This document shows positions 6,078 through 28,481 of a stretch of 64,000 nt of DNA, one piece after another. Source of the stretch: Cyclobacterium sp. SYSU L10401 (GTDB lineage Bacteria; Bacteroidota; Bacteroidia; Cytophagales; Cyclobacteriaceae). Each line of letters starts with the position of its first letter. Position 1 is the stretch's first letter. The position numbers and the translations under genes are program-made. The stretch is from assembly GCF_010993705.1 (NCBI RefSeq), contig NZ_WOFO01000004.1:248001-312000 (forward strand), written 5' to 3'. Under the pieces are notes generated by a model, which did no database searches, was not told the DNA's origin, and saw only the letters and a list, made by a program, of their open reading frames with translations.

Positions 6078-7385
6078 CTACCAGCACAATCCACTGTAAT
6101 TCGGCAGGTCTTCCAGTTCGGGAATGCGGACCAGGTCTACTACGGCATCCTTTTGGGCCAGCTTTTCCTTATGAGGGGCGGCGTCAAAATTGCGGTGATT
6201 GATCAGCACCACTTCTGCTTCAGCCAAGGCGGTATCCAGGTCCTCTGCAATCAAGTCCGACAAATGCGGCAGGTGCTCGTCAATAAAAGACCTATTGGCG
6301 CCCACCAGCTTGGAAAGCCTTACATTGGGATCGTAAATGGAGATGCGGAAACCCTTGCCGATCAATTTTTCCGCCAAATCCACCGAGGGGCTGTAGCGCA
6401 GGTCATCGGTTCCCTCCTTAAAGGACAGGCCCACAAAACAAATGTTCCGCTTGCCGGTACGGGCAATCAATTCATAGGCCGTACGCTTCTGGTATTCGTT
6501 GGACTCGTGTACGCCGCTAAGCACCGGGGTGGCGACATACTGATCATGCCCCAGGGTAACCAGGCCTTTCAGGTCCTTGGGCAGGCAGGAGCCTCCATAG
6601 GCAAAGCCCGGCTTGAAATAGGCCGGGGAAATGTTCAGGTGCGTGTCCTTGCAAAACAGCTCCATTACCTGATGGGAATCAATGCCCAGGGCCTTGGAAA
6701 TGTTTCCTACCTCGTTGGCAAAGGTGATTTTCAGGGCATGGAAACTATTGTTCACGTACTTGATGATTTCGGCCACTTCGATGGCAGTAATTTCGATGGG
6801 GGCATCCAGGTCACGGTACAGGGAGGAAACTTGTTCCAGTGCTCCCTCGTGATCCCCTCCGATCACGGTAATGGCCGGATGGTAGTAGTCTTTGACGGCC
6901 GTGCCTTCCCTTAAAAATTCCGGATTCGATACCACGGAAAAGTCCTTGCCACGCTCCTTGCCGGATACAGCGGCCATGACCTCTCCGAACTTTCGGTTGG
7001 TCCCCGGCAAAACCGTGCTGCGGATCACCACGGTATGGAAACTGTCCTTGCCTTTCAGGGCTTCTCCTATCTGTTCGGCCGTTTTGTATATGTAATCCAG
7101 GTTCAGGTGTCCCTGCGGGGAGGAAGGCGTACCCACGCAAATGATGCTGATATCCGAAGCGACCACAGCTTCTGCCGCCTGTTGGGTGGCAGCAATCCGG
7201 CCGGCGGAATGCCCTTCCCGGATGATCTGGTCGATGTCCTTTTCCACTATGGTGGGTTTGCCCTGATTGATCAGGTCCACTTTCAGGGCATTGATGTCCA
7301 CACCGATGAGCTGATGCCCGTTTTTGGCCAGGCAACCCAAACTGACGCAGCCCACATATCCCAAGCCAAATATTGAAATCTTCAT
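6078..7385 (-). CDS. UDP-glucose/GDP-mannose 6-dehydrogenase family protein
   Basis: NAD-dependent dehydrogenase that oxidises a nucleotide sugar at C6 to a uronic acid, supplying acidic sugar for polysaccharide. The 435-residue protein has an N-terminal Rossmann motif (IFGLGYVG, residues 4-11), the NPEFLREG motif, Lys in EIIKYVNN, and the catalytic Cys in YGGSCLPKDL. A C-terminal UDP/GDP-binding domain follows (FVGLSFKEGTDDLR). The N-terminus resembles GDP-mannose dehydrogenase AlgD (GCLAKNGH, DLINQGKP) more than UDP-glucose dehydrogenase, but substrate cannot be fixed by eye. It is the last gene of the minus-strand polysaccharide operon, starting 2 bases after the stop of the DUF354 gene. 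Confidence 0.9.
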   Translation of the reverse strand: MKISIFGLGYVGCVSLGCLAKNGHQLIGVDINALKVDLINQGKPTIVEKDIDQIIREGHSAGRIAATQQAAEAVVASDISIICVGTPSSPQGHLNLDYIYKTAEQIGEALKGKDSFHTVVIRSTVLPGTNRKFGEVMAAVSGKERGKDFSVVSNPEFLREGTAVKDYYHPAITVIGGDHEGALEQVSSLYRDLDAPIEITAIEVAEIIKYVNNSFHALKITFANEVGNISKALGIDSHQVMELFCKDTHLNISPAYFKPGFAYGGSCLPKDLKGLVTLGHDQYVATPVLSGVHESNEYQKRTAYELIARTGKRNICFVGLSFKEGTDDLRYSPSVDLAEKLIGKGFRISIYDPNVRLSKLVGANRSFIDEHLPHLSDLIAEDLDTALAEAEVVLINHRNFDAAPHKEKLAQKDAVVDLVRIPELEDLPNYSGLCW

Positions 7386-7387
7386 GC

Positions 7388-8425
7388 TTATTTTTTATAA
7401 TGATTGATTTTTTCTTCCATAAAGGCGATCATGTCGTCCCATTTTGCCAGCAAGTCCTGGCGAACCTCTTGCTGCTTTTGCTTATCCACCGGCCGGGAGA
7501 TGGCTTGCCGTACCGGCTCCAGGGCGGCCTCTTCGGGATGCTGGGAAAGCGGCCCTCCTTCCTGCATCAGGTAGGCATTGGCCCTCATCTCCCGCACCCC
7601 GCAGTAAATGCTGGGTGTTCCCAACATGGCCCCTTCCCTGGCCATGCTGTCGCCGGAGGAAAGCACCAGGCGGGCATGAAACATCAGGGAATGGATATCC
7701 CCAACCGGCTCCTGTAGCTGCACCCAATGCTCCGGATACAGATGGGCCTTGGCTTTGTCTTCCAGGGACAGCAATACCGGCACATCGGCCGGAATTTTAG
7801 CGGCAAAGCTGCCGACAATATCGGCCTTCTGGTCGTAATAGTTAAAGGACTGGTTGCTTACCTCCCGCACAAATACATAGGAATAGGGAGCCAGTCCATA
7901 GGCATCGGTGACGCTTGGGTCCGGAGTAAATCGGGCCGGACTCAGGTAGCTCCATTCCTTCAGGCAGTTAAAAATTCCTACTTTCTCGCTTTCCTCCACA
8001 ATGGGCGGAAAGAAGATCCGGTCGGAGAGCCGGGCATTGATGGCATTGATGCGTTGGCGCTCGGGATCGTCATAAAACTGGATCACCGGCGTGCCGCTAA
8101 GCCTGCAAGCCAGGGCCAGCGGTGCCGAGCTGGCCGCCACGCAGATGTCATAGTGATTTTTACGGATCAGTTTTAAAAAACTGCTGACCCGCTGCACGTT
8201 TCCCTGCCAAAGGATGGACCATTTGGTACCCTTGCTGCTGCCTACGGGAAGGGTGTGAAAACCGGCGTATTCCCGGGCAATGATCTGGGGCAATTTGCCC
8301 CGCTGCAGGTAGCAGACCGTTACCTCCCAGCCTTTGTTCTTCAGGCTTTCAGCCAGGTGCTTGAACAGGTTGAGCTGCGCGGGATGCTTGATATCGATCA
8401 GGATTTTTGGATTGGTTTTTGGCAT
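7388..8425 (-). CDS. DUF354 family protein (glycosyltransferase-B-like fold)
   Basis: About 345 residues of the DUF354 family, related in fold to UDP-GlcNAc 2-epimerases and GT-B glycosyltransferases and common in surface-polysaccharide clusters. Seen: start PKILIDIKHPAQLNLFKHL, an AASSAPLALACRLSG segment near residue 95, and a late SGDSMAREGAMLGTPSIY stretch like the donor-binding region of GT-B enzymes. Start set at the ATG at 8425, which overlaps the upstream sulfotransferase stop as TAATG; an in-frame ATG at 8443 would overlap it by 19 bases. Exact reaction unknown. Confidence 0.75.
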   Translation of the reverse strand: MPKTNPKILIDIKHPAQLNLFKHLAESLKNKGWEVTVCYLQRGKLPQIIAREYAGFHTLPVGSSKGTKWSILWQGNVQRVSSFLKLIRKNHYDICVAASSAPLALACRLSGTPVIQFYDDPERQRINAINARLSDRIFFPPIVEESEKVGIFNCLKEWSYLSPARFTPDPSVTDAYGLAPYSYVFVREVSNQSFNYYDQKADIVGSFAAKIPADVPVLLSLEDKAKAHLYPEHWVQLQEPVGDIHSLMFHARLVLSSGDSMAREGAMLGTPSIYCGVREMRANAYLMQEGGPLSQHPEEAALEPVRQAISRPVDKQKQQEVRQDLLAKWDDMIAFMEEKINHYKK

Positions 8426-9165
8426 TAGCGGATATATTTCCAATACAATTTACGAAACTGAAAGGTGGTATGGTAGCTGAGGTTATCCTTCAAGCTAGGA
8501 CGATAAGAAGGCCAGAAGTCTGGAAAGGCATAGTCGTAGCGCTTCAGGGCATGGTAAAAAACGCGCTGGGCCTGTGGGATAATAGACGGCGTATAGTATT
8601 CCTCAAAAGATTTACCCTCTTTTTTGGTCTTGTTCACCACCGGCAAGTCCCGTAGGGGCTCGATGCCTACGGCGCGCAAAGCGGCCAGAAAATCCTCGGA
8701 AAGTTTTTCAAAGCGGATCACGTAATCGTAGCGGTCCCAGTAGATGGCATGCCAGTCACTGTAGGGTTGCTGGTAAAATTGTTTGAAAAACTCCTGAAAA
8801 CTCAGGTCCTTGCCACTGACCGCCGAAGCCCGGTTGGCCAGCAGGCGGTTGGCCAGTGAAATCAGGCTTCTTTGCAGCCAGTTTTTATGACCTACCTCCT
8901 TGATTTGTTGACTTTGAATGCCATCGTGGTTAGACTTATACTTAAAGAACAGGCTGACGGTTCTATCCAGGGGATTCCGGGAAGAAGCGATGACCTTGTA
9001 GTTTTTTTCTTCGGCGCTGGCCTGTCTAAGAAACACATCGTAGGAAGCGTGTTTGTACAAAATGGGTTCTCCCCCGTATTTTTCACACAATTCCTTTCGA
9101 ATGGCCGTGGTACCGGTGCGGGGCAGGCAGACAAAAACAAATTTATGGGTATGACTGATGATCAT
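8425..9165 (-). CDS. Sulfotransferase family 2 protein
   Basis: Predicted PAPS-dependent sulfotransferase of 246 residues that would move sulfate onto a carbohydrate. The 5'-phosphosulfate loop is visible as LPRTGTTAIRKEL (residues about 14-26). The 3'-phosphate-binding segment is SSRNPLDRTVSLFF (about 61-74), matching the R-x-P-x-x-R-x-x-S pattern of the family. No membrane segment or signal peptide, so cytoplasmic. Overlaps both neighbours (1 base with the DUF354 gene, ATGA with the glycosyltransferase), showing it belongs to the polysaccharide operon. The PAPS it needs can be made by CysD/CysN/CysC encoded upstream. Confidence 0.8.
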   Translation of the reverse strand: MIISHTHKFVFVCLPRTGTTAIRKELCEKYGGEPILYKHASYDVFLRQASAEEKNYKVIASSRNPLDRTVSLFFKYKSNHDGIQSQQIKEVGHKNWLQRSLISLANRLLANRASAVSGKDLSFQEFFKQFYQQPYSDWHAIYWDRYDYVIRFEKLSEDFLAALRAVGIEPLRDLPVVNKTKKEGKSFEEYYTPSIIPQAQRVFYHALKRYDYAFPDFWPSYRPSLKDNLSYHTTFQFRKLYWKYIR

Positions 9166-10289
9166 GCCTTGACTTTTTTAGTAGCTAATTGAGAAAATAA
9201 CGCCATTAATTTTTCGGCGCTGCTGCTGAGGGAATGTTGCTCCACCATCTCCCGAATACGCGGGTAATAGGAATCATATTCCGAAAGGTTTTGGGACAGA
9301 TGCCTGATTAGATTAGCCAGCTCCTTAACGTTATCTTTTTCGAAAAGAAATCCAGTTTGGCCAGGTATGACAAATTCTTTGATGCCTCCGACAGCCGTAC
9401 CTACCACCAATGCATTGCCTGCCATGGCTTCCAATCCTACCAGGCCAAGTGGTTCTTCCCGTGAAGGAAACACAAACACGTCGGCCAAATTGTTGTAAAT
9501 ATTCAGTACGTCCGGAGGCACCTTGGAGCGGATATGAATCACTTCTGAAAGCCCATTGCTTTCTACAAAAGATTGGTAGTTGCGTTTCAAGGGACCATCT
9601 GTAAGAAGGATCACTTGTATTTTTTGTTGAATAGACTCTTCCAGCGACAGTACGGCATCCAACATTACATCCATCCCCTTTCGTGGGATGGCATTTCCGG
9701 CGCAAAGAAAAACAACTTTGTCGTCTGAAACAGCATACTGCTTTTTGAGTTCATCCAGGCCATCAAGGGGTTTCATTACCGATAAATCTACTCCAGGGGA
9801 AATGATGCGCACATTTGGATTTGCTGATACTTGTTTCACTTTTTTATAAATGTCCTGACTATTGGCAATCACCCAATCAGACCGATCCAAGGAATACCGG
9901 ATCAGGCGATTTCCCATCCCCTTGCCCTTCAGGTTTCGATTAAGGTCTCCCCCATGCACATAGGCTACCACCGGCAATCCGGTAAATCGTTTTACCCACA
10001 CTGCCAGCAGGGTAGATAGCAAAATCCCCTGGGGAAACAACACATCTGTATTTTTCAGATTCCTAAGAAGAAAAGGAATATGGCTGAATACGTAAAAGAA
10101 ATACTTGATAACCGTGGCGAGAGGGTTTTTGACTTTATTGGCATTTCCCCAAAAATAAAAAACGACATTAAAACCTACCTTAACCTTGCCACCTTGTCGC
10201 TTCATTTCATCCACCATCTTCTTGATAAAAAGCTGATTGAAGGGATTGGCGCGTGTAGGGTAGCTATTACAAAGAAACAATATTTTCAT
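9162..10289 (-). CDS. Glycosyltransferase family 4 protein
   Basis: Retaining GT-B glycosyltransferase of 375 residues, probably adding one sugar of the repeat unit at the cytoplasmic side of the membrane. N-terminal acceptor domain begins KILFLCNSYP. The C-terminal domain carries the GT4 features GNAIPRKGMDVMLDAV (about residue 215) and the E-x7-E motif in EEPLGLVGLEAMA (about 285). Lies between the two sulfotransferases, with a 4-base ATGA overlap to the downstream one. Donor and acceptor unknown. Confidence 0.88.
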   Translation of the reverse strand: MKILFLCNSYPTRANPFNQLFIKKMVDEMKRQGGKVKVGFNVVFYFWGNANKVKNPLATVIKYFFYVFSHIPFLLRNLKNTDVLFPQGILLSTLLAVWVKRFTGLPVVAYVHGGDLNRNLKGKGMGNRLIRYSLDRSDWVIANSQDIYKKVKQVSANPNVRIISPGVDLSVMKPLDGLDELKKQYAVSDDKVVFLCAGNAIPRKGMDVMLDAVLSLEESIQQKIQVILLTDGPLKRNYQSFVESNGLSEVIHIRSKVPPDVLNIYNNLADVFVFPSREEPLGLVGLEAMAGNALVVGTAVGGIKEFVIPGQTGFLFEKDNVKELANLIRHLSQNLSEYDSYYPRIREMVEQHSLSSSAEKLMALFSQLATKKVKA

Positions 10290-10306: not shown

Positions 10307-11215
10307 TTAATACCAGTCTTTTAAATCCAGTCCGGTCAATTTTTCCAGTTGCATAATATCTTTCCTAAAAACAGGCTTCAACAAATCAGCACTTTTCTGA
10401 TCCATTTTAGGCTTGGACAAAAACAGATTCCGATAGTAGTTATCGAACTTCTTACGGATTTTTGAAAGAGGAGAATGCGTCAAAAATGGAAAAGTCCTGC
10501 GCATAAAACGCAAACTTTTTATGTAAACTGTATGTAACATGCCAAATTTTGGAACTCCGGAAGCATTGTGTTTGTCTACTTTAATATCCTGAAAAACATT
10601 TTCCACGCCTAGGAATTCGGAAACCTTACCCAAAAATTCATTGGGATTTTTCATAAGGTCCTCAAACTTCAGAATTAAAATCTGATCTCTTGGAAACAGG
10701 TCGAAATAAGCCTGTAACTGTCTACCATACATACTCATGTCGATAAATTTCCGCTGGGGTGCCCAGGAGTCCCGTTTCCCACCTAGTTCTTCCTTAAGCG
10801 CATCATAAAAAGAAGGCGCTGAAACCGTTTGTTCTCGTACGTGATGCAGGTAATGGGAATAAGCTCTTTGAATGGGATTGCGCACAATTCCTATGATTTT
10901 AGCTTCCGGATTATAGTCGAATAATTTTTGGGCCACCTGAGAATAATACATGTACATGGTTGAGGCTTCCCCTACCCAGGCGTAGCCTTTTGCGTCGGAA
11001 AAAAGCTTTTCGTATTCGGTAAGCGTTTTGGGGTATTTTTCAAAGAAAAAGTCATCGTCAGGGCCTTGATATTTTAAGTCATGCACTTCCCTCAAAAAGT
11101 AGTGGGGTTCCTTTTGAATAGAAAAAAAGATTTCCTTAGATTTTTGAAGATAAGAATAAAGCGTGGTCGTTCCGCATTTTGCGCTGCCAATAATAAATAA
11201 ATTAGGCTTTGTCAT
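10307..11215 (-). CDS. Sulfotransferase domain protein
   Basis: Second predicted PAPS-dependent sulfotransferase, 302 residues. The 5'-phosphosulfate loop is GSAKCGTTTLYSYL (about 9-22) and the 3'-phosphate motif is IVRNPIQRAYSHYLH (about 128-142), followed by a typical LKFEDLMKNP segment. It resembles the heparan-type/bacterial Sulfotransfer_1 group and differs clearly from the family 2 enzyme at 8425, so two different positions or sugars may be sulfated. Overlaps the upstream polymerase gene by 14 bases. Confidence 0.85.
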   Translation of the reverse strand: MTKPNLFIIGSAKCGTTTLYSYLQKSKEIFFSIQKEPHYFLREVHDLKYQGPDDDFFFEKYPKTLTEYEKLFSDAKGYAWVGEASTMYMYYSQVAQKLFDYNPEAKIIGIVRNPIQRAYSHYLHHVREQTVSAPSFYDALKEELGGKRDSWAPQRKFIDMSMYGRQLQAYFDLFPRDQILILKFEDLMKNPNEFLGKVSEFLGVENVFQDIKVDKHNASGVPKFGMLHTVYIKSLRFMRRTFPFLTHSPLSKIRKKFDNYYRNLFLSKPKMDQKSADLLKPVFRKDIMQLEKLTGLDLKDWY

Positions 11216-12437
11216 TTCCGATTTTAAAATTTTTCTTTAAAATAAGATTGTACTTGGTAAGTATACCTAAAAGGAAAAAAACAGTAGATAAAGAAGAAAT
11301 GGTCCAATATTGGTTAGCAAAAGATTGAATGGTAGTAGCTAATAATAGAGCTAAAATGGTACCAAAGAGGACTTTCCTCCACCTGTATTTATAATTTTTA
11401 AAGATCCGATAATTATATCTTAAAATCGAATAATGAATTAGAATAAAAAGTAAAAGCCCAACAAGACCCGATCCTAGAAAAATTGCCGCAAAATCATTAT
11501 GTACTTGTCTCCATGGAAGGATCCATCCTATTCTGGTATGCTTAAAAATTTGCGAGTAATCACCAATCATTATTTCTCTGGCACTCCCCTCTTTGAACAC
11601 TTCCCATGCCATCTGCAAATCATAGCCTCTACTGTAGGTATCACTGGTCATTACCTCCACGCCACCTCTTTCTTCGAGACGAATCAAAAAATTTTCATAA
11701 AGTATCGGGGAGAACACCACCACTAAGGCAATAATAACGATAAAAAACCCCGCAAACTTCCTGTTTTTGAAATTAAAGAGAAATATTAAGGACAGTCCCA
11801 AAACATAAGCCAATAGCGCAGACCTTCTAAATACTAGTACCAATAAAACCAATGTAGCTAGGGTAATAATTAAAAAGAGCAACTTTTTAAACTTTGAAAA
11901 ATCAATTTCATAAAAAGCCAATGGAAGTAGCAGGGAGTAATAGGCCAAGGAATTTAAAACATATACACCTGTACCACTTCCGTCCCCCATAGCTGGCAAA
12001 TAGACGTTCGAATAGGAAGCCTCTCCCAATCCTGGAATAACCTGTGCCGACGCTAAATAAAAAATTATTAAACTAAAGGTTAGTAATATTGCGTTAAAAA
12101 CCTTTTTAAAATCTTCTTTATTATACAAAAAATTATAACCAAATAAGAACATATTGATTGAGGTTATAAATTTCAAATAAATGTCAAATGATCCAGTTAG
12201 GTTTTGAGAAAAAAGAACTAAAATAAAAAGGTAAGCGGTAAGGCAAAGGATCAGATGGTTTGTTAGTATATTTTTGTATTTGGTATAGCCCAAAACAAAC
12301 AAAAATATCAAAATAACTCCTCTTACATGACCTGTATGTAATCCTGAAGAAAAAAAATGAGCTGTAATATCAGAGATCCCATTTAAGATCGGAACAGATG
12401 ACAAAACGAGAATCCGGTAATTAAACTTTATTGACAT
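11202..12437 (-). CDS. Wzy / O-antigen-ligase-like polymerase
   Basis: Very hydrophobic 411-residue protein with roughly ten to twelve membrane segments and one larger outside loop (about residues 230-310). The loop and following part carry the WILPWRQVHNDFAAIFLGSGLVGLL-type pattern (read as HND followed by G-x-x-G) typical of the Wzy_C/WaaL family. It would polymerise lipid-linked repeat units in the periplasm. Base composition is more AT-rich than flanking genes, common for Wzy genes. Overlaps both neighbouring genes. Polymerase is favoured over ligase because Wzx and Wzc are in the same locus. Confidence 0.8.
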   Translation of the reverse strand: MSIKFNYRILVLSSVPILNGISDITAHFFSSGLHTGHVRGVILIFLFVLGYTKYKNILTNHLILCLTAYLFILVLFSQNLTGSFDIYLKFITSINMFLFGYNFLYNKEDFKKVFNAILLTFSLIIFYLASAQVIPGLGEASYSNVYLPAMGDGSGTGVYVLNSLAYYSLLLPLAFYEIDFSKFKKLLFLIITLATLVLLVLVFRRSALLAYVLGLSLIFLFNFKNRKFAGFFIVIIALVVVFSPILYENFLIRLEERGGVEVMTSDTYSRGYDLQMAWEVFKEGSAREIMIGDYSQIFKHTRIGWILPWRQVHNDFAAIFLGSGLVGLLLFILIHYSILRYNYRIFKNYKYRWRKVLFGTILALLLATTIQSFANQYWTISSLSTVFFLLGILTKYNLILKKNFKIGNDKA

Positions 12438-13458
12438 TAAAAAATTTAAGTTTTAGCCATTTTACAAAGGAGTTTCTATTTACAGATTTTGCCCTTCCAT
12501 ATATTGAATTATTTAGTTTTGCCGATATTATTTTTTTTGAAAGTAGCTTCAAATATGTTGATTGGGCAGTTTGTGGTAAATTATCAATTATCCTGACCAA
12601 ATAAAAAAACTCCTTTTTCCTATTATCATTATAAAGTTTAATCGCATGAGTTGAGAGTTTGTCTGTAAGATTTTTATTCCCTTTAAATGCTAAAAATGAT
12701 TCTTTACCTAACATATCGATATGGTCGTAACCGAGTTTTTTTCTCATTTTCATACACTCTACACCAAGCTCCATGTAAAAAATTTGTTTAATCCTTTTTA
12801 TAGGATCCCCTGAAACAGAGCCTTCCACATGCCTCCATTGTCGGTATAATACTTGCGGAACCAAAGTATAGTCCGAAACCAAAGACAATCTACATAAAAG
12901 ATCTGAATCCTGAGCATAGGTAAAAAACTCCCTGTATCCCCCTACCATTTCATAATAATTCCTTTTAACCATAATATGAGAGCCATTTAAAGGACGCTTG
13001 CCCTTCCGTATCATACTATTGTAAAAATTACGGGGCGGCCACCTTGCCGTCACTGAAATCGTACCGTCTTTAAAAACTTTTTCATCCTCACATCCAACAA
13101 TAGAATATTTTTCGTTTTCCAATAAAGCAGCTACTTGCTTCCCAACCCTCTCCGGGTACGAATAGTCTCCCGATCCGTGGATGGCAATAAACTCTCCCTT
13201 AGACTGCTGAATGGCATGGATCAATGCCCGGGTAAATCCTTGGTTTTGTTTATGAGCAATAATTTGAATTCTGGGATCAGATTCGAATTTCTGGAGCTCC
13301 TTTAAGGTATTGTCGGTGGAACAATCGTCAAAAATAATGATTTCCAGATTGGGGTAGGTCTGATCCAGCAGGCTTTGGATCGACTCGTCTACCAGGTTTT
13401 CCCGGTTGTAATAGCCGGTAATTACCGACACCAAAGGTTGATTCTTTTCTGCTTCCAT
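12421..13458 (-). CDS. Glycosyltransferase family 2 protein
   Basis: Inverting GT-A glycosyltransferase of 345 residues. The N-terminal domain has the family start SVITGYYNRENLVDESI and IIIFDDCSTDNT (about 10-50). The usual DxD position reads IHGSGDYSYPERV (about 95), with SGD instead of a clean DxD, and a further ED appears in GCEDEK. C-terminal part (about 220-345) is AT-rich and unrecognised. Overlaps the polymerase gene by 17 bases and lies 3 bases after murB. Likely adds a repeat-unit sugar; donor unknown. Confidence 0.85.
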   Translation of the reverse strand: MEAEKNQPLVSVITGYYNRENLVDESIQSLLDQTYPNLEIIIFDDCSTDNTLKELQKFESDPRIQIIAHKQNQGFTRALIHAIQQSKGEFIAIHGSGDYSYPERVGKQVAALLENEKYSIVGCEDEKVFKDGTISVTARWPPRNFYNSMIRKGKRPLNGSHIMVKRNYYEMVGGYREFFTYAQDSDLLCRLSLVSDYTLVPQVLYRQWRHVEGSVSGDPIKRIKQIFYMELGVECMKMRKKLGYDHIDMLGKESFLAFKGNKNLTDKLSTHAIKLYNDNRKKEFFYLVRIIDNLPQTAQSTYLKLLSKKIISAKLNNSIYGRAKSVNRNSFVKWLKLKFFNVNKV

Positions 13459-13461
13459 CGT

Positions 13462-14319
13462 TTAAATAATTCGCTGTTCTACTTCCAGCTCCACATCGTA
13501 GCGCTCCTTTACTTTATTTTTTACATGGGCTATGATCTCCAGGATATCCTGCCCGCTGGCATTGGCCACATTGACTATAAATCCCCCGTGTTTTTCGGAG
13601 ATTTGAGCCCCACCGACGGTATAGCCTTTAAGCCCCAGCTCGTCCATCAGGGCACCTACGTAATGGCCTTTGGGTCGCTTGAAAACGGAGCCGGCATTGG
13701 GATAGTTGCGGGGCTGCTTGGCCCAGCGTTGATCCCTGATCCGGTCCATCTTCGCTCGGATAGCGGCTTTATCCGCAGGACGCAGGCGCAGCCATACCTT
13801 CAGCACTACCTTATCGGTATGCCGCTGAAAGAAGCTGTTGCGGTACTCAAAACCCATATCCTCCTGCCGGATCTCCTTTACCTGCCTATCTGCCAGGTCC
13901 AGGTAGCGTACCTTGACCAGTACATCCTTGATCTCCTCCCCACTGGCCCCGGCGTTCATCACCACTGCCCCTCCCAGGGAACTGGGAATGTCGTAAAAAA
14001 TTTCCATGCCACTCAAACCCAATTCCAGGGCCTGCTCGCTGATTTCCAGCATGCTGATACCGGACTCGGCCACGATTTCCCCGGTTTCGGGGTTCCCTTC
14101 CAAGGCATTAAAATTACCATTAAAGATCAGAAAGCGGGTATCGTACCAATCTCTGGACAGGATCACATTGTGTCCGCTGCCCAGCAGGCAATAAGGAGCC
14201 GGATCTGAAAAAAAGCGCACAATATCTGCCTCAGTCTCCGGAAAATAGGCCTCCCGGCAGCGGGACGCTATCCGGTAGGAATTGTATAAAGTAAGATCAC
14301 ATTGCTTGATAATGCGCAT
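13462..14319 (-). CDS. murB: MurB-like UDP-N-acetylenolpyruvoylglucosamine reductase
   Basis: FAD- and NADPH-dependent enzyme family that reduces the enolpyruvyl group on UDP-GlcNAc to the lactyl group of UDP-MurNAc. The 285-residue protein has the FAD-binding GSGHNVILS (about 47-55) and IPSSLGGAVVMNAGASG (111-127). Active-site residues are all kept: Arg160 in EYRNSFF, Ser211 in NAGSVFKRP, and a C-terminal Glu in VELEVEQRI. It appears catalytically complete. It sits inside the exopolysaccharide operon together with a MurA-like gene 1.8 kb upstream, which suggests a role in making a lactyl-bearing sugar for the polymer rather than peptidoglycan. That role is inference; the cell's main murB could also simply lie here. 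Confidence 0.85.
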   Translation of the reverse strand: MRIIKQCDLTLYNSYRIASRCREAYFPETEADIVRFFSDPAPYCLLGSGHNVILSRDWYDTRFLIFNGNFNALEGNPETGEIVAESGISMLEISEQALELGLSGMEIFYDIPSSLGGAVVMNAGASGEEIKDVLVKVRYLDLADRQVKEIRQEDMGFEYRNSFFQRHTDKVVLKVWLRLRPADKAAIRAKMDRIRDQRWAKQPRNYPNAGSVFKRPKGHYVGALMDELGLKGYTVGGAQISEKHGGFIVNVANASGQDILEIIAHVKNKVKERYDVELEVEQRII

Positions 14320-20368: not shown

Positions 20369-20393
20369 AGAAATCACATCATCACATCCTCTC

Positions 20394-21299
20394 CTAGAAA
20401 TACCCACTCTTCTTCCTGTCCTCCATGGCGGTTTCGCCTCTTTTGTCGTCTGCCCGGGTACCCCTTTCGGTGGTTCGAGTGGTAGCTACTTCGGCAATGA
20501 TTTTTTCCAGGTCATCGGCATCCGATTCCACCGCTCCCGTGATGGGCATATCCCCGCAGGTACGGTACCGCACGGTCATGGTCTTCACTTCTTCTTCGGG
20601 CTTCAACTGAATGAAATCCGATTTGGCCAGGATGACACCGTCCCTGACCACACATTCCCGCTGATGGGAAAAGTACAGGGAAGGCAAACCGATGTTTTGG
20701 TTTTGGATGTATTGCCAGACATCCATTTCTGTCCAGTTTGAAATGGGGAAAATCCTGAAATGCTCTCCCATGTGCTTTTTGCCGTTAAACAGGTTCCAAA
20801 GCTCAGGCCTTTGGTTTTTGGGATCCCACTGACCAAATTCATCGCGGTGGGAAAAGAAGCGCTCCTTGGCACGGGCTTTCTCTTCGTCCCTTCTTGCACC
20901 TCCCATGGCGGCATCAATTTTGAATTTTTCAAGGGTATCCAGTAGGGTCACCGTCTGCAGGGCATTGCGACTAGCATTGACACCGGTCTCCTCCCTCACC
21001 TTGCCTTCATTGATGCTCTGCTGTACCGAGCCAACGATCAGTTGGACGCCCAGGTCATTTACCAGCTGGTCCCTGAAAGCGATGGTCTCGGGAAAGTTAT
21101 GTCCCGTATCGATATGGATCAGGGGAAAGGGGATGCGGGAAGGATAAAACGCCTTTTTGGACAGGTGAGCCAGTACGATACTGTCCTTGCCACCTGAAAA
21201 CAAAAGGGCAGGTTTCTCAAATTGGGAGACCACCTCCCGGATAACAAAAATCGCTTCTGCTTCCAGTTCCTCCAGGTGGGATAAATAGTATTGTGCCAT
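20394..21299 (-). CDS. cysD: Sulfate adenylyltransferase subunit 2 (CysD)
   Basis: Catalytic ATP-pyrophosphatase subunit of ATP sulfurylase. The 301-residue protein has the PP-loop FSGGKDSIVLAHL (about 33-46), HIDTGHNFPET, and the C-terminal EVATTRTTERGTRADD region characteristic of CysD. cysC lies 2 bases upstream, so the two are cotranscribed. Together with cysN and cysC it gives PAPS. No APS/PAPS reductase or sulfite reductase gene is nearby, pointing to sulfation rather than cysteine synthesis. Confidence 0.96.
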   Translation of the reverse strand: MAQYYLSHLEELEAEAIFVIREVVSQFEKPALLFSGGKDSIVLAHLSKKAFYPSRIPFPLIHIDTGHNFPETIAFRDQLVNDLGVQLIVGSVQQSINEGKVREETGVNASRNALQTVTLLDTLEKFKIDAAMGGARRDEEKARAKERFFSHRDEFGQWDPKNQRPELWNLFNGKKHMGEHFRIFPISNWTEMDVWQYIQNQNIGLPSLYFSHQRECVVRDGVILAKSDFIQLKPEEEVKTMTVRYRTCGDMPITGAVESDADDLEKIIAEVATTRTTERGTRADDKRGETAMEDRKKSGYF

Positions 21300-21301: not shown

Positions 21302-21895
21302 TTATATTTTAATTTTTTTATCTAATGCTTCCATCAATTGTTCTACTGCCTTCTCAGCGGTGACTTCTGCCGTTTTGATCACTAAAAAAGGAGATTCAGG
21401 AGCTTCATAGGGGGAATCGATGCCTGTAAAATCCTTGATCAGACCTTGCCGGGCCTTTTGATACAGGCCTTTTACATCTCTTTCCTCACAGATTTTCAGC
21501 GGACAGTCCACATGGATTTCCAGAAACTGATCTTCACCCACCAACTCCCGGATCATTTCCCTGTCAGAAATATAGGGGGAAATAAATGCCGATAATACGA
21601 TCAGGCCGGCATCCATCATCAGCTGACTCACGGCAGCGATTCTGCGTATGTTTTCTACCCGGTCAACCTTGCTGAAGCCCAGGTCTTTGTTCAGCCCCGT
21701 ACGGATATTGTCTCCATCCAGCAGGTACGTATGGTATCCCAGGCGGTGCAGGGCCTGCTCTGTGGCATTGGCCAGGGTGGACTTGCCCGAGCCGGACAGG
21801 CCGGTAAACCAGATCAGCCTGGCCTGCTGCCCCAGGGCCTGCTGCCGGAGCTCCCGGGTGACTTTAAATTCGGATGGGTGTATGTTTTCCTGCAT
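21302..21895 (-). CDS. cysC: Adenylylsulfate kinase (CysC)
   Basis: Phosphorylates APS at the 3' position to give PAPS, the sulfate donor of sulfotransferases. The 197-residue protein has Walker A GLSGSGKSTLAN (about 32-43), LDGDNIRTGLNKDLGFS, and FISPYISDREMIR with the conserved Ser of the family. A stand-alone kinase, not fused to CysN. Positioned between the SLC13 permease gene (22 bases upstream) and cysD (2 bases downstream). Confidence 0.96.
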   Translation of the reverse strand: MQENIHPSEFKVTRELRQQALGQQARLIWFTGLSGSGKSTLANATEQALHRLGYHTYLLDGDNIRTGLNKDLGFSKVDRVENIRRIAAVSQLMMDAGLIVLSAFISPYISDREMIRELVGEDQFLEIHVDCPLKICEERDVKGLYQKARQGLIKDFTGIDSPYEAPESPFLVIKTAEVTAEKAVEQLMEALDKKIKI

Positions 21896-21917: not shown

Positions 21918-23699
21918 TTAAAGGTAATACCATTGAATAAACAAAAGCACCACGGTACTGTAAATCAGGGTAAGCGGAAAGCCGATTTTAAAGTAATCTT
22001 TAAACTTGTAATTTCCAGGCCCCATGACCATCAAATTGGTTTGATACCCTATAGGCGTCATGAAATCCCCGGACGCCCCAAAGGCTATGGCCACAAAGAA
22101 AGGGACCAATGGCTGCTCCAGCTGGTTACCAAGCTCCATGGCAATGGGAAACATGATGGAAACCGCTGCCGCATTGGTGATCAGACTGGTCAGCACCAGG
22201 GTCATGACAAACAACAGGACCAAAGCAAGCATTACCTCCGTACCATCACTGAGGTAAAGCAAGCCATTTACCAACTGATTGGCCGCTCCGGAATTGTTTA
22301 AAGCTACTCCCAGAGAAAGGGAACAGACCAGGATCAACAACAGGTCCAGGTCCACTGCCTTTCGTAAAGTCTGCAAATTTAACACTTTAAATATATAGAG
22401 GGTAAGGATTCCGGCAAAAGCTGCCATAAAAAGATCTACCCAGCCTATAATGCCGGTAAACAATATGGCCAATGCCAGCAGGGAGGGCAAGCGCTTGAAC
22501 AAGCCCTTGTCCTGACTGATTTCTCCCCTTAGGGTAATGATAATCAAATCTTTGAGGTACTCGTTCCGGTTATCTTCCTTACCGGTCAGCATCAGGAAAA
22601 GGTCACCTGCCTGCACCTTGGTCTCGCCTATGTTGCCTTTCAGTTGGGTACCATTTCGGTGAATGGAAATGATGGAGGCCTGGTACCGGTTGCGGAAATC
22701 GCTGTCCTTGATTTTTTCACCGATCAAAGCGGAGGAGGCCGGCACCACCGCTTCGGTCAATTGAAAAAAGCCATAATTGGAAACATAGCCATCTTCCGGA
22801 AGGCTGAGTCCGTTTTCCTCCTGAATCAATTGGAGTATGGCCTCCGAATTTCCGGTAAAAAAAAGCTTGTCTCCCTCCTGCAAAAGCTCATTGGGACCTA
22901 CCGGTGATATTTCCAGGCTTCCTCTCTTGATTTCCGCCAGAAAAATCTCCTTCAACTTTCTGAGTCCGGCTTCCTTGACGGTTTTGCCATGCATTTTGGA
23001 TCCCTGCGGCAGGTAGGTTTCTACCAGGTACTCATTCAGGTGATCGATGATTTCGCTTTTGTTTTCTTCCCGGGCAGGCAGCAGGTGGGCAGAAGCCAGG
23101 CTGAGGTAAATGATGCCAAAGAATGTGACCAGCAAGCCCAGGTAAAGGAAATCCTCAAAGCCCAGCAGGGGAAGCCCATACTGGCTGATCAGTCCGTTTA
23201 GTACCAGGTTGGTAGAGGTACCTACTACCGTGATCATACCTCCAAGGATAGTAGAAAAAGAAAGTGGGATCAAGAATTTTGAAGCCGGATAGTTATTGGT
23301 TTTGGTCCACTCTTTTACGTAGGGGATCATAAAGGCTACCACCGGTGTATTATTCAGCACGGCAGAGAGACTCCCTACCAGCAGCATCAGGCGCATGCGG
23401 AATACACCCGGCTTTAGTTTTTGGCTGAAAAGCCGGAAGAAAAAACCTGTTCCTATATTTTTCTGTATGCCGGCCGTGAGTCCGATCAACAAAAAAATCA
23501 CAATGATCTGTTTGTTGGCCAGGCCCATCAAAAATTCCTCGGGCCGGATGATTTGCAGGAGGAGCAACAAAAAAACCGCCCCCAAAAATGCAAAAGACGG
23601 TCTGAGCAGGTCTCTGTACAATACAAATACCAATCCTGCAACAATAAACAGGGTAATCAGGCTGGGGGAAAACATCAAAGGGTTAAAGAAATCAGGCAC
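21918..23699 (-). CDS. SLC13-family permease with two RCK_C domains, probably sulfate uptake
   Basis: Inner-membrane anion:sodium symporter-type protein of 593 residues. N-terminal block of membrane segments (1-200) with VLNNTPVVAFMIPYV, then a soluble middle part with two TrkA-C/RCK_C-like domains (about 215-380). A second membrane block (about 400-593) contains SLGVALNNSGAANQL and ASGDFMTPIGYQTNLMV. This layout matches sulfate permeases of the SLC13/DASS group. It heads the cysC-cysD-cysN run, which supports sulfate as substrate; that is inference from context. Confidence 0.85.
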   Translation of the reverse strand: MPDFFNPLMFSPSLITLFIVAGLVFVLYRDLLRPSFAFLGAVFLLLLLQIIRPEEFLMGLANKQIIVIFLLIGLTAGIQKNIGTGFFFRLFSQKLKPGVFRMRLMLLVGSLSAVLNNTPVVAFMIPYVKEWTKTNNYPASKFLIPLSFSTILGGMITVVGTSTNLVLNGLISQYGLPLLGFEDFLYLGLLVTFFGIIYLSLASAHLLPAREENKSEIIDHLNEYLVETYLPQGSKMHGKTVKEAGLRKLKEIFLAEIKRGSLEISPVGPNELLQEGDKLFFTGNSEAILQLIQEENGLSLPEDGYVSNYGFFQLTEAVVPASSALIGEKIKDSDFRNRYQASIISIHRNGTQLKGNIGETKVQAGDLFLMLTGKEDNRNEYLKDLIIITLRGEISQDKGLFKRLPSLLALAILFTGIIGWVDLFMAAFAGILTLYIFKVLNLQTLRKAVDLDLLLILVCSLSLGVALNNSGAANQLVNGLLYLSDGTEVMLALVLLFVMTLVLTSLITNAAAVSIMFPIAMELGNQLEQPLVPFFVAIAFGASGDFMTPIGYQTNLMVMGPGNYKFKDYFKIGFPLTLIYSTVVLLFIQWYYL

Positions 23700-24245: not shown

Positions 24246-25097
24246 TTGAAACCCCGGCAAGTCCTTTACCCCAGTATCAGCACCTTTGGTCTGAATAGAA
24301 GCCTTTTTTTATTTTTACTGGCACTTCAGTTTTTTTCCTGTGTGTCCAATGAAAAGCTGATTTATTTGCAGAACCTGGAAGGAAATGAACCGATACCCGA
24401 GGACGCCCTGATCGGATATACCACCACAGAATATCAGGTACAATACAATGATGTACTGGACGTGAAAATTCAGACCGTAGATCCGGAAATGAATGAGTTG
24501 TTCAATATTTCCGGCGGTCAAAACATGATGCAGGCAGGCAGAAATGCGGAATCCTCCGGAGGGGATATTTTTTACCTTACAGGTCATACCGTGGATAAGG
24601 AGGGCAATATAGAATTACCCTTGTTGGGAGAAGTATTTGTAATGGACATGACCCTAAAAGAAATCAAAACCAAAGTGCATGAGGATTTGAAGAAATACAT
24701 GACCAATGATGACTATTATGTGCGGGTCAAACTGGGGGGGATTCGCTTCAGCACCCTGGGGGAGTTCAGGAGACCGAACAAATACGTGGTATTGCAGGAC
24801 CGGATGACCATATTGGAAGCCATATCCCTATCCGGGGACCTGAATGTGTCGGCCAAAAGGGATGAGATCCTATTGATCCGGCAATATCCGGAGGGAACCA
24901 AATTGCATCGGGTCAATCTCAATGACCGGAACCTGGTCAACAGTCCCTACTATTTTATTCAGCCCAATGACCAGTTGTATGCCGAGCCCATGCGGATCCG
25001 CGAACTGGGATCAGGAGAAAACCTGGCCCAATCTATCTCCTTACTCGTTACATCTGTAACCGCAGCGGCTTTGATCCTTAATTTAATTTTAAACTAA
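24246..25097 (+). CDS. wza: Wza-like polysaccharide export lipoprotein
   Basis: Outer-membrane polysaccharide export protein (Poly_export plus SLBB domain) forming the exit channel for exopolysaccharide. The 283-residue protein starts at TTG 24246. It has a hydrophobic signal with Cys near residue 32 (LQFFSC) as probable lipidation site. A Poly_export domain follows (about 60-165, YQVQYNDVLDVKI), then an SLBB segment (YVRVKLGGIRFSTLGEF, GDLNVSAKRDEILL). A C-terminal hydrophobic stretch may cross the outer membrane. The wzc gene follows 3 bases later. No closer ATG precedes the signal sequence, which supports the TTG start. Confidence 0.88.
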   Translation: MKPRQVLYPSISTFGLNRSLFLFLLALQFFSCVSNEKLIYLQNLEGNEPIPEDALIGYTTTEYQVQYNDVLDVKIQTVDPEMNELFNISGGQNMMQAGRNAESSGGDIFYLTGHTVDKEGNIELPLLGEVFVMDMTLKEIKTKVHEDLKKYMTNDDYYVRVKLGGIRFSTLGEFRRPNKYVVLQDRMTILEAISLSGDLNVSAKRDEILLIRQYPEGTKLHRVNLNDRNLVNSPYYFIQPNDQLYAEPMRIRELGSGENLAQSISLLVTSVTAAALILNLILN

Positions 25098-25100: not shown

Positions 25101-27539
25101 ATGGAGCAACCTGCATCCCATCCTTTTCAGCAAAATCCTATGGAAGAAGAGGAAATAGATCTGAAAGAAATATTGTTTAAATACCTGAGGTACTGGAAGG
25201 TAATTGCTTTTTGTGCATTCATTGGTTTTTTTCTGGCTTTTGCCTTTAACCAACTGGTAACCCCGGTCTATAAGGTACAATCCTCGGTAATCATCAAAGA
25301 TGAGGATTCCGGCATGTTGGGATCGGGTTTGTTTGAACAGGCAGGCTTGAATGTACCCAAAAACAATGTGGAAAATGAAATGGGCATACTGACCAGTTTT
25401 TCGCTGGTGTATGAGGCGCTGGAAAAGCTCAACCTGAATGTCACTTACTCCAGGGATGGTTTTTTCGGTCCGGAGGAAATATACCTTACTTCCCCCCTGC
25501 TGGTCGAAGTAGACTGGCAGCATCCCCAGATTATCTATGGTAGTTTTGCCGTAGAGAATCTGGGTGATGGTCAATTTGAGCTGAGCATTGAGGAGGATGA
25601 GTTCCTATTGTTTTCCCCAAAAGATCCCAACTTCAAAACCAGAATAGAAAATGTAGAAATTGAGGAAGGTATATACAGCTTTGATGAACTGCTCACCGGC
25701 ACAAGCTTTAAGTTCAGTATTTCCAATATAAGTATGGATAAAGGTGAAAAGGTTTATTTTAACCTGAAAGATACCGGAGCTTTAACCAATGAATTCCGGT
25801 CTTCCCTGGAGGTAAGTCCACTGAATCGAACCTCCACAGTCCTGAACCTTGAAATAGAATTGAACAACCGAAGAAAGGGAGAAAACTTCCTGAACCAACT
25901 GATGGAGGATTACCTGGCCCGGGAGCTCAACGAAAAAAACCGTACCGCAACCAATACCATCAATTTTATCGAGGGGCAACTTTCGGGGATTTCGGATTCC
26001 CTTTCCTTTATCGAGGACAGACTGGAAAACTACCGCAGTGCAAACAGTGTGTTTAACCTGACAGAAGAAGGCACCCTGATCTTTCAGCGGCTGGCAGAAC
26101 TGGAAGAACAAAAGGCCCAAATGGACCTTTCCCTATCCTACTACCGGTCCATGGCTACTTACCTGGGAGAAGAGGAACTCAATGACCTGGTCGCCCCATC
26201 TTTTATCGGAATCCAGGATCCATTGCTCAATGCCCTGGTGATTTCACTGGCAGAATTGCAAAGTGAAAAAGTCAGGCTGACCGCCAGCTTTTCTGATGAG
26301 ACCCCTGCGGTTCGGGAGGTTAACTCCAAGATAAAAAATACCCAGAATGCCCTTTCGGAAAACTTGCGAAATGCCATATCCAATGCAGAAACGAAGCTTT
26401 CCGAGCTCAATGACCGGATCCGCCAGGTAGAACGGGAAATCAACCGGCTGCCCAGCACGGAGCGAAACCTGCTGGGCATTCAGCGGCAGTTTACGATTAA
26501 TGAGAACATCTATGTGTATTTGCTCGAAAAAAGAGCAGAGGCAGAAATCACCAGGGCCTCCAATTACCCGTCCAATAATATCCTGGATGCTGCAAGGTCC
26601 GCGTCTGTGCCGGTATTCCCCCGAAAAAATATCAATTACCTGATCGGGATCCTTTTTGGCATCATCCTACCGGTAGGTTTTATTACCCTTCGGGACTTGT
26701 TCAATACCAAGATCCGGGACCCACACGAAGTGGAGAAAAAATTGCGGGTGCCCCTGATCGGATTGATCGGTTACAGTACCGCCAAAACCAACCTGGTGGT
26801 CCACAGCAATCCCAAATCGGTGATTACCGAGGCTTTCAGAAACCTGCGGGCCAATATGAGCTACCTGAGCATGGGCAAAAACAAATTGATGATCGGACTT
26901 TCCTCCTCCATTTCCGGCGAAGGAAAGACCTTCTGCTCCATCAACCTGGCAGCGGTGTATGCCCTTTCGGGCAAAAAAGTCTTATTGGTAGGCCTGGACC
27001 TTAGAAAACCCCGGATAGCCGATGATTTTGACCTGTCCAATGACCGGGGAGTAAGTACCTACCTGAAAAGTGAAACTGACTGGAAACCTCTGGTGCACCA
27101 GGAAGTAAAGGAAAACCTGGACATTTTGCTTTCCGGTCCCATTCCCCCCAACCCTGCCGAATTGATGCTCCAGGACCGGTTTTCCTACCTGATGGAAGAG
27201 ATCCGCGAAGCCTACGATATCGTAATTCTGGACTGCCCCCCGGTGGGGCTGGTTTCGGAAACCCTGGAAATATTCAAATATTCTCAAATTAACCTGATGA
27301 TCCTGCGGCAGGAATTTTCTGAGAAAAGCGCCTGCGACTACATCAACTCCCTTCAGGAACAAAACGGTGTCAAGAAATTATATGCCGTCATGAATGGGGT
27401 GGTCAATAAATCCAAATATGGAGGTTATGGTAAATATGGCTATGGTGGAGGCTATGGCTATGGCAGCAAAGGTTACGGTTACCATGAGGAGATGCCTTCC
27501 AGGGCATGGTGGAGAAAATGGTTACCTATATCGGTTTAA
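25101..27539 (+). CDS. wzc: Wzc-type polysaccharide co-polymerase / tyrosine autokinase
   Basis: Inner-membrane protein of 812 residues that sets chain length and drives export with the Wza channel. Order seen: cytoplasmic N-tail, first membrane segment (about 35-55), Wzz domain, long coiled-coil periplasmic part (about 270-470), GNVR-type segment, second membrane segment (about 515-535). A BY-kinase domain follows, with Walker A SISGEGKTFCSINLA (about 602), Walker A' LLVGLDLRKPR and Walker B VILDCPPVG. The tail (about 770-795) is a Tyr/Gly-rich stretch (YGGYGKYGYGGG and on) with around ten tyrosines, the expected autophosphorylation cluster. Phosphorylation state would control polymer length. 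Confidence 0.93.
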   Translation: MEQPASHPFQQNPMEEEEIDLKEILFKYLRYWKVIAFCAFIGFFLAFAFNQLVTPVYKVQSSVIIKDEDSGMLGSGLFEQAGLNVPKNNVENEMGILTSFSLVYEALEKLNLNVTYSRDGFFGPEEIYLTSPLLVEVDWQHPQIIYGSFAVENLGDGQFELSIEEDEFLLFSPKDPNFKTRIENVEIEEGIYSFDELLTGTSFKFSISNISMDKGEKVYFNLKDTGALTNEFRSSLEVSPLNRTSTVLNLEIELNNRRKGENFLNQLMEDYLARELNEKNRTATNTINFIEGQLSGISDSLSFIEDRLENYRSANSVFNLTEEGTLIFQRLAELEEQKAQMDLSLSYYRSMATYLGEEELNDLVAPSFIGIQDPLLNALVISLAELQSEKVRLTASFSDETPAVREVNSKIKNTQNALSENLRNAISNAETKLSELNDRIRQVEREINRLPSTERNLLGIQRQFTINENIYVYLLEKRAEAEITRASNYPSNNILDAARSASVPVFPRKNINYLIGILFGIILPVGFITLRDLFNTKIRDPHEVEKKLRVPLIGLIGYSTAKTNLVVHSNPKSVITEAFRNLRANMSYLSMGKNKLMIGLSSSISGEGKTFCSINLAAVYALSGKKVLLVGLDLRKPRIADDFDLSNDRGVSTYLKSETDWKPLVHQEVKENLDILLSGPIPPNPAELMLQDRFSYLMEEIREAYDIVILDCPPVGLVSETLEIFKYSQINLMILRQEFSEKSACDYINSLQEQNGVKKLYAVMNGVVNKSKYGGYGKYGYGGGYGYGSKGYGYHEEMPSRAWWRKWLPISV

Positions 27540-27542
27540 AGC

Positions 27543-28481
27543 ATGAGAAGCTGCCTGCAATTTGGTTGGATACTGCTGTTGGTCGCTTGCCTGAATGGCT
27601 GTGGGCCGAAAGACATTACCTTTATGGCCATCGGGGATGTGCCCTATCACCTGCCTGAGGATTTTGAGCGATTTGAACGCTTGATTCAGCAAATCAATGG
27701 TGAAGGTCCTGCCCTGACTTTGCATGTGGGAGACATCAAATCCGGCAGCACCCCTTGCTCGGATGCGTATTTTGAAAAAATAAAAGGCTATTTCGATACT
27801 TTTGATCAGCCTTTGGTCTATACCCCGGGGGACAATGAATGGACGGATTGCCACCGGGAAGCCTGCGGAAGCTTTGAGCCGGAGGAAAGGCTGGATAAAC
27901 TGCGGCAATTGTTTTTTGCTACCCCACAAAGCCAGGGCAAAAACCCCATGCCTCTGGAAAGGCAGAACAGCCTGGAGGGCTTTGAAAAGTTCCCGGAAAA
28001 TGCCCGCTGGCAAATGGCCGGAGTTACCTTTGGCACCTTGCACGTCATCGGTTCCAATAACAATTTCAAACTGGATTCAGCGGCACTGAACGATGAGTTT
28101 TACGAGCGAGAGCTGGCGAATAACTTCTGGTTGAAACAACTTTTTGAACAGGCCAGGGAGACTGATAGCCGCGGTTTGGTGCTGGTCCTGCATGCCGGAC
28201 TTAATTATAACAGCCGGGATGAACGTAACGGCCATGCCAGTTTTGTACACCTCTTGCGGGAAGAAGTGATGGCGTATGGCAAGCCGGTGCTGCTCCTGTA
28301 TGGAGACAACCACCGGTTTATGATAGACCAACCCCTTCGGGACGATACGGGCAGGACCCTAACCAACTTTACTGCTGTTCAGGTATTTGGTGATCGGGAC
28401 ATGCATGCCGTGCGGATACAGGTATCCCCGGAAAACCCCCATTTGTTTTTGATTGACCCTTTTTATGTAGCAGGGAATTGA
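27543..28481 (+). CDS. Calcineurin-like phosphoesterase lipoprotein
   Basis: Predicted periplasmic metallophosphoesterase of 312 residues, beginning with a lipoprotein signal (LLLVACLNGC, Cys20). Metal-binding motifs of the family appear in order: IGDVPYH (about 30), HVGDIKSG (about 63), PGDNEW (about 97) and LVLHAGL (about 220). The final motif is LYGDNHRF where most members have GHxH. So the fold is likely, but the last metal site is changed. Starts 3 bases after wzc, so made with the export machinery. Substrate unknown. Confidence 0.7.
   Translation: MRSCLQFGWILLLVACLNGCGPKDITFMAIGDVPYHLPEDFERFERLIQQINGEGPALTLHVGDIKSGSTPCSDAYFEKIKGYFDTFDQPLVYTPGDNEWTDCHREACGSFEPEERLDKLRQLFFATPQSQGKNPMPLERQNSLEGFEKFPENARWQMAGVTFGTLHVIGSNNNFKLDSAALNDEFYERELANNFWLKQLFEQARETDSRGLVLVLHAGLNYNSRDERNGHASFVHLLREEVMAYGKPVLLLYGDNHRFMIDQPLRDDTGRTLTNFTAVQVFGDRDMHAVRIQVSPENPHLFLIDPFYVAGN

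Follow-up and report, generated by a model that had tools for sequence, protein, structure and literature searches.

The 64,000-nucleotide stretch of the Cyclobacterium sp. SYSU L10401 genome analysed here (contig NZ_WOFO01000004.1, positions 248,001 to 312,000 of the forward strand; hereafter the window) carries an exopolysaccharide locus that probably directs the Wzx/Wzy-dependent assembly of an acidic polymer, with a repeat unit both sulfated and bearing a lactyl-ether, muramic-acid-like sugar. Gene identities, gene order, retained catalytic residues, clade membership and linkage were read from sequence, and from these we infer the reactions and the sequence in which they occur, together with the acceptor sugar and the polymer composition. 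The sulfation half belongs to an already known type of locus; the new part is a branch encoded by a second MurA (enolpyruvyl transferase) and a second MurB (enolpyruvyl reductase). Both lie in a minus-strand run of sixteen genes (23699 to 6078), with Wza, Wzc and a 312-amino-acid protein divergent on the plus strand (Table 1). The first-pass annotation of this DNA listed a permease, cysCDN, cysQ, Wzx, a Wzy-like polymerase, two sulfotransferases, a dehydrogenase and divergent Wza/Wzc, each of which was recovered with profile models, but it overlooked three of the sixteen minus-strand genes (MurA-like, MurB-like and CysE/EpsC-like) and counted two glycosyltransferases where three glycosyltransferase-like genes are present (GT2 at 12421, GT4 at 9162 and DUF354/GT4-like at 7388).

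A second MurA and MurB among polysaccharide genes

Compared with the canonical enzymes of the same genome, the window MurA has approximately 30% identity to MurA (contig C17) and the window MurB approximately 27% identity to MurB (contig C3). A genome scan with the window MurA returned 63 loci, 59 of them at 58–65% identity and from eight phyla; the Clostridia/Eubacteriales genes L073–L076, 35–36% identical, were counted as canonical. In a tree with SH-aLRT (Shimodaira–Hasegawa-like approximate likelihood ratio test) support, from an alignment omitting one partial sequence (L070) and duplicate loci, 59 rows (58 loci and the window) fell on one side of a branch with support of 100, against 21 canonical rows. 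This tree replaced a FastTree run that also gave one group but had support labels that shifted on re-rooting. The clade is rare and patchy: in a sample of 395 genomes of the phylum, only that of the Cyclobacterium strain itself had it at E 1e-100 or better.

In 52 of the 59 loci the clade MurA has a MurB homologue within 6 kb, and 56 contain one or more additional homologues of polysaccharide genes from the window. Of 16 genomes tested, 15 also carry a canonical MurA. Among the 37 Bacteroidota loci, 25 have Wzx between MurA and MurB, an arrangement seen in none of the 22 others. A GT2 homologue adjoining MurB is not universal (15/54 loci), and on a Qingshengfaniella plasmid murA, murB and GT2 stand as a bare triad, the 21 kb shown having no further polysaccharide gene annotated. 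A second exopolysaccharide locus on contig C21 of the Cyclobacterium genome (L079:1596-11579), with homologues of Wza (48%) and Wzc (40%), is apparently a decayed sister locus: it contains MurA-like pieces in three frames, a 286-amino-acid open sulfotransferase reading frame and a 39-residue MurB-like piece.

Positions expected to serve MurA catalysis (E. coli numbering throughout) are conserved in the clade, with K22, N23, R91, C115, R120, D231, D305, R331, D369 and R371 invariant in all 59 rows and R397 kept in 58; the window protein has K22, C115, R120, D305 and R397. The substitutions V161R, V163T, A186H, E188R, I233M, F302I, P303N, T304S and V327R are likewise fixed in 59/59 rows and P121K is present in 56/59, whereas the canonical rows have E188 and A186 in 21/21 and V163 and I233 in 20/21. 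W95L is also fixed in the clade, but it occurs in 5/21 canonical rows and carries little weight. Trp95, Val161, Val163, Glu188, Ile233, Pro303 and Val327 are among the MurA ligand contacts reported in a docking study, which are docked poses and not a crystal complex (PMC11628175). This pattern suggests that the clade MurA should have kept its chemistry while the acceptor pocket was altered and gained positive charge, and the arginines at 161, 188 and 327 would fit an acidic acceptor, e.g., a uronic-acid nucleotide sugar. That the MurA family can take other acceptors is illustrated by NikO (129.3 bits; PMC6801904). The canonical MurA rows from Bacteroidota (that of the Cyclobacterium genome and eight others) have Asp at the Cys115 position in 9/9, a residue that goes with fosfomycin resistance (PMC6801904). 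Because the clade keeps Cys115 in 59/59 rows, fosfomycin might block the clade MurA yet spare the cell wall.

The catalytic residues R159, S229 and E325 of MurB are kept in all 54 locus-type rows (35/35, 17/17 and 2/2 by group). In the MurB tree, which omits two reading frames of approximately 600 amino acids, one group comprised 35 Bacteroidota rows (support 100/100) and a second (100/99) comprised 17 rows, one of them from Bacteroidota and the rest from Pseudomonadota, Planctomycetota and Actinomycetota; both were separate from a 14-row canonical group. L026 and L058 made up a further pair, and the canonical L120 and L143 were long branches outside the 14-row group. The partners of the MurA clade are drawn from two or more MurB lineages; that a single MurA clade is joined by MurB proteins of several lineages argues that the two work as a functional pair. 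MurB position 233 was considered as a mark of new specificity and dropped; the PDB MurB 3tx1 carries the same residue.

The window pair belongs to the fold family of peptidoglycan MurA/MurB, has their catalytic residues and is predicted to share their chemistry; it differs in its altered acceptor pocket and its place in polysaccharide loci beside a canonical copy. The predicted product class is that of the 1-carboxyethyl (lactyl-ether) sugars of O-antigens and other polysaccharides, which the available parts of two sources describe as structures, leaving the biosynthetic genes unnamed (PMC10609480, PMC8466920). Among the literature matches listed, by their titles and abstract openings, none connects such sugars with MurA and MurB encoded together in a polysaccharide locus. 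This decoration is so far known mainly from chemistry, and the window locus offers candidate genes for it. We tentatively extend this, with rather less confidence than we would need to assert it, to a horizontally mobile MurA/MurB module that makes a lactyl-ether nucleotide sugar other than UDP-N-acetylmuramic acid (UDP-MurNAc) for surface polysaccharides, here combined with sulfation. If true, this would explain genetically how bacterial glycans come to carry 1-carboxyethyl ethers. The clade comprises testable candidate genes in many genomes, including small plasmid-borne units.

Sulfate activation and the two sulfotransferases

The two sulfotransferases within the Wzx/Wzy operon are different, as first annotated, and match separate Pfam families above the cut-offs. 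Among PDB entries, sulfotransferase 1 matches a bacterial sulfotransferase (3rnl; 7e-47) and, less strongly, heparan sulfate 3-O- and N-sulfotransferases (6.5e-12 and weaker). Sulfotransferase 2 has no PDB relative up to E 1 and its homologues are rare (5/395 class genomes, own included). In an unrelated genome (L177) a homologue of sulfotransferase 2 that likewise matches Pfam lies immediately next to, and divergent from, cysC-cysD, the products of which are 51% and 71% identical to those of the window. In two genomes of one genus (L178, L179) it lies beside a homologue of sulfotransferase 1, so the pairing of the two types recurs. With two Pfam-level sulfotransferases within a Wzx/Wzy operon, the sulfated acidic polymer originally proposed stays the best reading, although that proposal missed the MurA/MurB pair.

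Spacing between the genes is uneven. Gaps from cysQ through the dehydrogenase are −19 to 42 bases, with 42 bases between cysQ and MurA and the GT2 gene starting 3 bases downstream of MurB, and gaps of 22 and 2 bases separate permease from cysC and cysC from cysD. Wide gaps lie between cysD and cysN (600 bases) and between cysN and cysQ (309 bases), so a single transcript for the whole run is not assured; the description of these genes as running directly into the operon holds for permease-cysC-cysD and for cysQ through the dehydrogenase, but not across the two gaps around cysN. Repeats occupy much of both gaps (18250-18480 and 19893-20388), consisting of 8-base-periodic pyrimidine- or purine-rich runs, with a 62-base repeat at 89%.

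Three PF01507 genes are present in the genome (5.9 Mb in 22 contigs, 99.99% complete): the window CysD and two CysH (contigs C20 and C9). The window CysD was the sole CysD found in the genome and no Sat-type ATP sulfurylase was found there; no assimilatory second copy of cysDN was thus detected, by a search for CysD and Sat that did not cover a second CysN. The cysH on C20 is followed by a 700-amino-acid sulfite/nitrite-reductase-like gene and two sirohaem-type genes, with no cysDN there. In all three relatives compared (L164–L166), homologues of the four C20 genes, 66–76% identical, flank cysD-cysN without cysC. With a single CysD and no Sat found, and a cysH operon lacking cysDN, the window CysDN probably supplies both cysteine synthesis and 3'-phosphoadenosine 5'-phosphosulfate (PAPS), and the earlier claim that the locus has its own PAPS supply was too strong. 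The accompanying statement that no reductase lies nearby is correct for cysH in the window, but leaves aside the two cysH and the sulfite/nitrite-reductase-like gene elsewhere in the genome. The C20 CysH exceeds the adenosine 5'-phosphosulfate (APS) reductase cut-off (250.1 vs 235.3), so CysC and CysQ, unlike CysDN, should be dispensable for it, which favours use of PAPS by the sulfotransferases. The second CysH (C9) passes the general phosphoadenylyl-sulfate reductase model only and may use PAPS in assimilation.

CysD was detected in 55 of 60 family genomes, with a single match in 53 of those 55. In 20 CysD neighbourhoods (approximately 10 kb each side, some shortened by contig ends), cysC and cysQ are also present in 16 (L148–L163), and wza/wzc adjoin four of these PAPS-type cassettes: L148 (the Lunatibacter locus again), L149, L152 and L153. 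In L150 the run permease-cysC-cysD-cysN-cysQ is accompanied by a sugar transferase and a dehydrogenase-like gene, and its neighbourhood gave no MurA, MurB, Wzx or sulfotransferase match. Among the 59 MurA loci, cysC is present in seven, a Pfam-level sulfotransferase in eight (L021, L043, L056, L059, L061, L064, L066 and L067) and both in three. A home-made iterated profile gave sulfotransferase reading frames in 13/59 loci; L039, L045, L068 and L067:11151 had no Pfam match over the curated cut-off, and L052 and L072 (weak), profile matches only, were left out of the eight. The p values from this looser count (0.0016 and 0.016) were withdrawn in favour of those given below. Genome-wide PF13469 positions, available for 50 of the 59 loci, were consulted in just two cases, Lunatibacter and one other genome (G020, locus L037); in the latter, the three matches all lie away from the MurA locus.

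Loci of related content are known. The synechan xss cluster of Synechocystis 6803, for which a sulfated polymer was demonstrated, also encodes two sulfotransferases, each from a different subfamily, alongside Wzx, Wzy, a co-polymerase and glycosyltransferases; unlike the window locus, the terms PAPS and cysC are absent from the available text of that source and a Mur-like pair is unmentioned in it (PMC8205485). The capsule loci of Vibrio sp. KMM 8419 and Cobetia marina KMM 1449 likewise have PAPS genes with sulfotransferases, and sulfate was shown in both capsules by nuclear magnetic resonance (PMC11641403, PMC11766843). They differ in being proteobacterial, in export by an ATP-binding cassette transporter and in that a Mur-like pair is unmentioned in the available parts of both sources. 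In addition, the Vibrio strain has second copies of cysC, cysN and cysD (PMC11641403), whereas the window cysDN is apparently the only copy in its genome. Within the Bacteroidota, BT_0411-BT_0416 of Bacteroides thetaiotaomicron places putative sulfate import and PAPS genes by a sulfotransferase, but sulfates cholesterol and is no polysaccharide locus (PMC9417993). The earlier remark that such loci are little described in Bacteroidota has to be weighed against this sterol-sulfating cluster. Pontiella produces sulfated glycosaminoglycan-like polymers, for which a candidate cluster was described (PMC7356697), and in a mat study, as far as the available text goes, no Bacteroidota metagenome bin had a PF13469 sulfotransferase (PMC9723792). 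The sulfation half of the window locus adds a Wzx/Wzy case in Bacteroidota.

Proposed pathway and alternative explanations

In the proposed pathway, the permease would take up sulfate, CysDN would convert it to APS (also for cysteine synthesis) and CysC would form PAPS. The MurA-like enzyme would transfer enolpyruvate from phosphoenolpyruvate onto a nucleotide sugar, and the MurB-like enzyme would reduce the enolpyruvyl group to an O-lactyl (1-carboxyethyl) ether. The GT2 enzyme encoded next to MurB is the candidate transferase of the lactyl sugar and would build the repeat unit with the other glycosyltransferases, the unit having been begun on lipid by a transferase encoded outside the window. 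One or both sulfotransferases would sulfate from PAPS, CysQ would clear the resulting 3'-phosphoadenosine 5'-phosphate (PAP), and Wzx, Wzy, Wzc and Wza would carry out flipping, polymerization and export.

Several observations weigh against this pathway. The acceptor of the MurA-like enzyme could still be UDP-N-acetylglucosamine after all, and the window MurA missed the TIGR01072 cut-off by 2 bits (390.6 vs 392.7), with the broader PRK09369 passed (397.7 vs 297). No initiating sugar-phosphate transferase (PF02397) was found in the window, the nearest of nine genome-wide matches being approximately 26 kb outside. Sulfotransferase 2 is a weak Pfam match, 7.9 bits over the cut-off, and its single-sequence AlphaFold model was unusable (mean pLDDT, the predicted local distance difference test score, 38.8). 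A Pfam-level sulfotransferase occurs in 3/7 MurA loci with the cassette and 5/52 others (one-sided p = 0.046; 0.16 within Bacteroidota; neither value takes account of relatedness among loci), and near 1/16 family cassettes (L149; own profiles and Pfam); the association of cys cassette and sulfotransferases is suggestive only. Between permease and MurB the Lunatibacter locus is ordered identically, but none of the six reading frames scanned there was recognized as a sulfotransferase, and the Lunatibacter genome has no PF13469 gene in a search that did not extend genome-wide to PF00685 and PF03567. Our confidence was slightly lowered because the association of cassette and sulfotransferases is weak.

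The cys genes could also be an ordinary sulfate-activation operon that a mobile exopolysaccharide module adjoins by chance, with no special tie to the polymer, an explanation that we consider quite possible while leaning somewhat away from it. It would account for the single CysD in 53 of the 55 CysD-bearing family genomes, for the L150 cassette standing apart from any MurA, MurB, Wzx or sulfotransferase match, and for the higher identity to Lunatibacter of CysD (93%), CysN (86%) and canonical MurA (83%) compared to the locus MurA and MurB (both approximately 64%). CysQ (63%), CysC (69%) and the permease (74%), however, are no closer to Lunatibacter than the locus genes are, so the identity argument is valid for CysDN alone, and chance adjacency fits poorly with wza/wzc adjoining 4/16 family cassettes and with the sulfotransferase 2 homologue beside cysC-cysD in L177. 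At the other extreme, the locus could be self-contained for sulfation, providing PAPS for itself and building a sulfated uronic-acid polymer to which the Mur-like genes are incidental. In favour of this, the permease, cysC, cysD, cysN, cysQ and both sulfotransferases are co-directional with the operon, cysQ lies 42 bases from MurA, and CysC should be dispensable for the APS-type C20 CysH. We regard it as improbable, given a sulfate-activation supply that is probably common to cysteine synthesis (only one CysD and no Sat found, a cysH operon without cysDN), the 600- and 309-base gaps, and a MurA/MurB pair that recurs in 52/59 loci and is hardly incidental.

A further alternative concerns the product of the pair, which as a duplicate might make ordinary UDP-MurNAc, either as a peptidoglycan spare or for plain N-acetylmuramic acid in the polymer; the latter departs from the proposed pathway in the acceptor only. 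In its favour, all catalytic positions examined are kept, MurB exceeds the curated MurB cut-off and MurA nearly exceeds its own. We nevertheless think it rather unlikely, since nine pocket positions are fixed in 59/59 rows to residues absent or rare in canonical rows, the clade has polysaccharide surroundings in 56/59 loci and canonical copies coexist in 15/16 genomes. The lactyl-ether, sulfated acidic polymer remains the reading that we favour.

Gene content of the locus and its flanks

Table 1. Genes of the exopolysaccharide locus, in window coordinates, with the profile matches on which each assignment is based.
Gene or product	Coordinates	Strand	Profile match
DASS/SLC13-type anion permease with TrkA-C domains	21918..23699	-	CitMHS 162.3 bits, Na_sulph_symp 52 bits
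cysC, APS kinase	21302..21895	-	TIGR00455 256.9 bits (cut-off 138.7)
cysD, ATP sulfurylase small subunit	20394..21299	-	TIGR02039 422.6 bits (cut-off 396.6)
cysN, ATP sulfurylase large subunit, no APS kinase domain	18534..19793	-	TIGR02034 566.2 bits (cut-off 336.1)
cysQ, 3'(2'),5'-bisphosphate nucleotidase (PAP removal)	17466..18224	-	TIGR01331 278.1 bits (cut-off 228.8)
Second MurA, enolpyruvyl transferase, exopolysaccharide clade	16143..17423	-	EPSP_synthase 243.6 bits
CysE/EpsC-type hexapeptide acetyltransferase	15620..16156	-	EPS_EpsC 108.9 (cut-off 150), cysE 102.7 (cut-off 210.65); both below cut-off
Wzx-type flippase	14331..15623	-	Polysacc_synt 66 bits (cut-off 28.2)
Second MurB, enolpyruvyl reductase	13462..14319	-	TIGR00179 205.6 bits (cut-off 144.5)
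GT2 glycosyltransferase	12421..13458	-	Glycos_transf_2 102.3 bits
Wzy-like polymerase	11202..12437	-	Wzy_C 45 bits (cut-off 31.7)
Sulfotransferase 1	10307..11215	-	Sulfotransfer_1 57.3 bits (cut-off 22), Sulfotransfer_3 57.9 bits
GT4 glycosyltransferase	9162..10289	-	Glycos_transf_1 101.1 bits
Sulfotransferase 2	8425..9165	-	Sulfotransfer_2 29.9 bits (cut-off 22)
DUF354/GT4-like probable glycosyltransferase	7388..8443	-	DUF354 44.7 bits, Glyco_transf_4 29 bits
Nucleotide-sugar dehydrogenase (uronic-acid forming)	6078..7385	-	TIGR03026 381.8 bits (cut-off 189.8)
Wza-type export lipoprotein	24246..25097	+	Poly_export 50.9 bits (cut-off 28)
Wzc-type co-polymerase and tyrosine kinase	25101..27539	+	GNVR, Wzz, AAA_31; TIGR01007 131.2 bits (cut-off 108.05)
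312-amino-acid protein adjoining Wzc	27543..28481	+	no Pfam family

The permease is under the NCBIfam DASS cut-off (97.7 vs 198.6) and is a probable sulfate importer, its substrate being deduced from the adjoining genes. For the dehydrogenase, no substrate-specific model reaches its cut-off. The 312-amino-acid protein has 64% identical homologues adjoining Wzc in L148 and by the sulfate permease in L150, with no Wza/Wzc matched in the fetched neighbourhood of the latter. The locus is flanked by a Wzi-like capsule assembly protein (88-1122) and a GH20 hexosaminidase (28644-30545), whose tie to the polymer is conjecture. Further along the window, a run of PSD/PSCyt domain, HXXSHH and PhoPQ-related genes is present at 52617-59125, the PSCyt domain name deriving from Planctomycete cytochromes.

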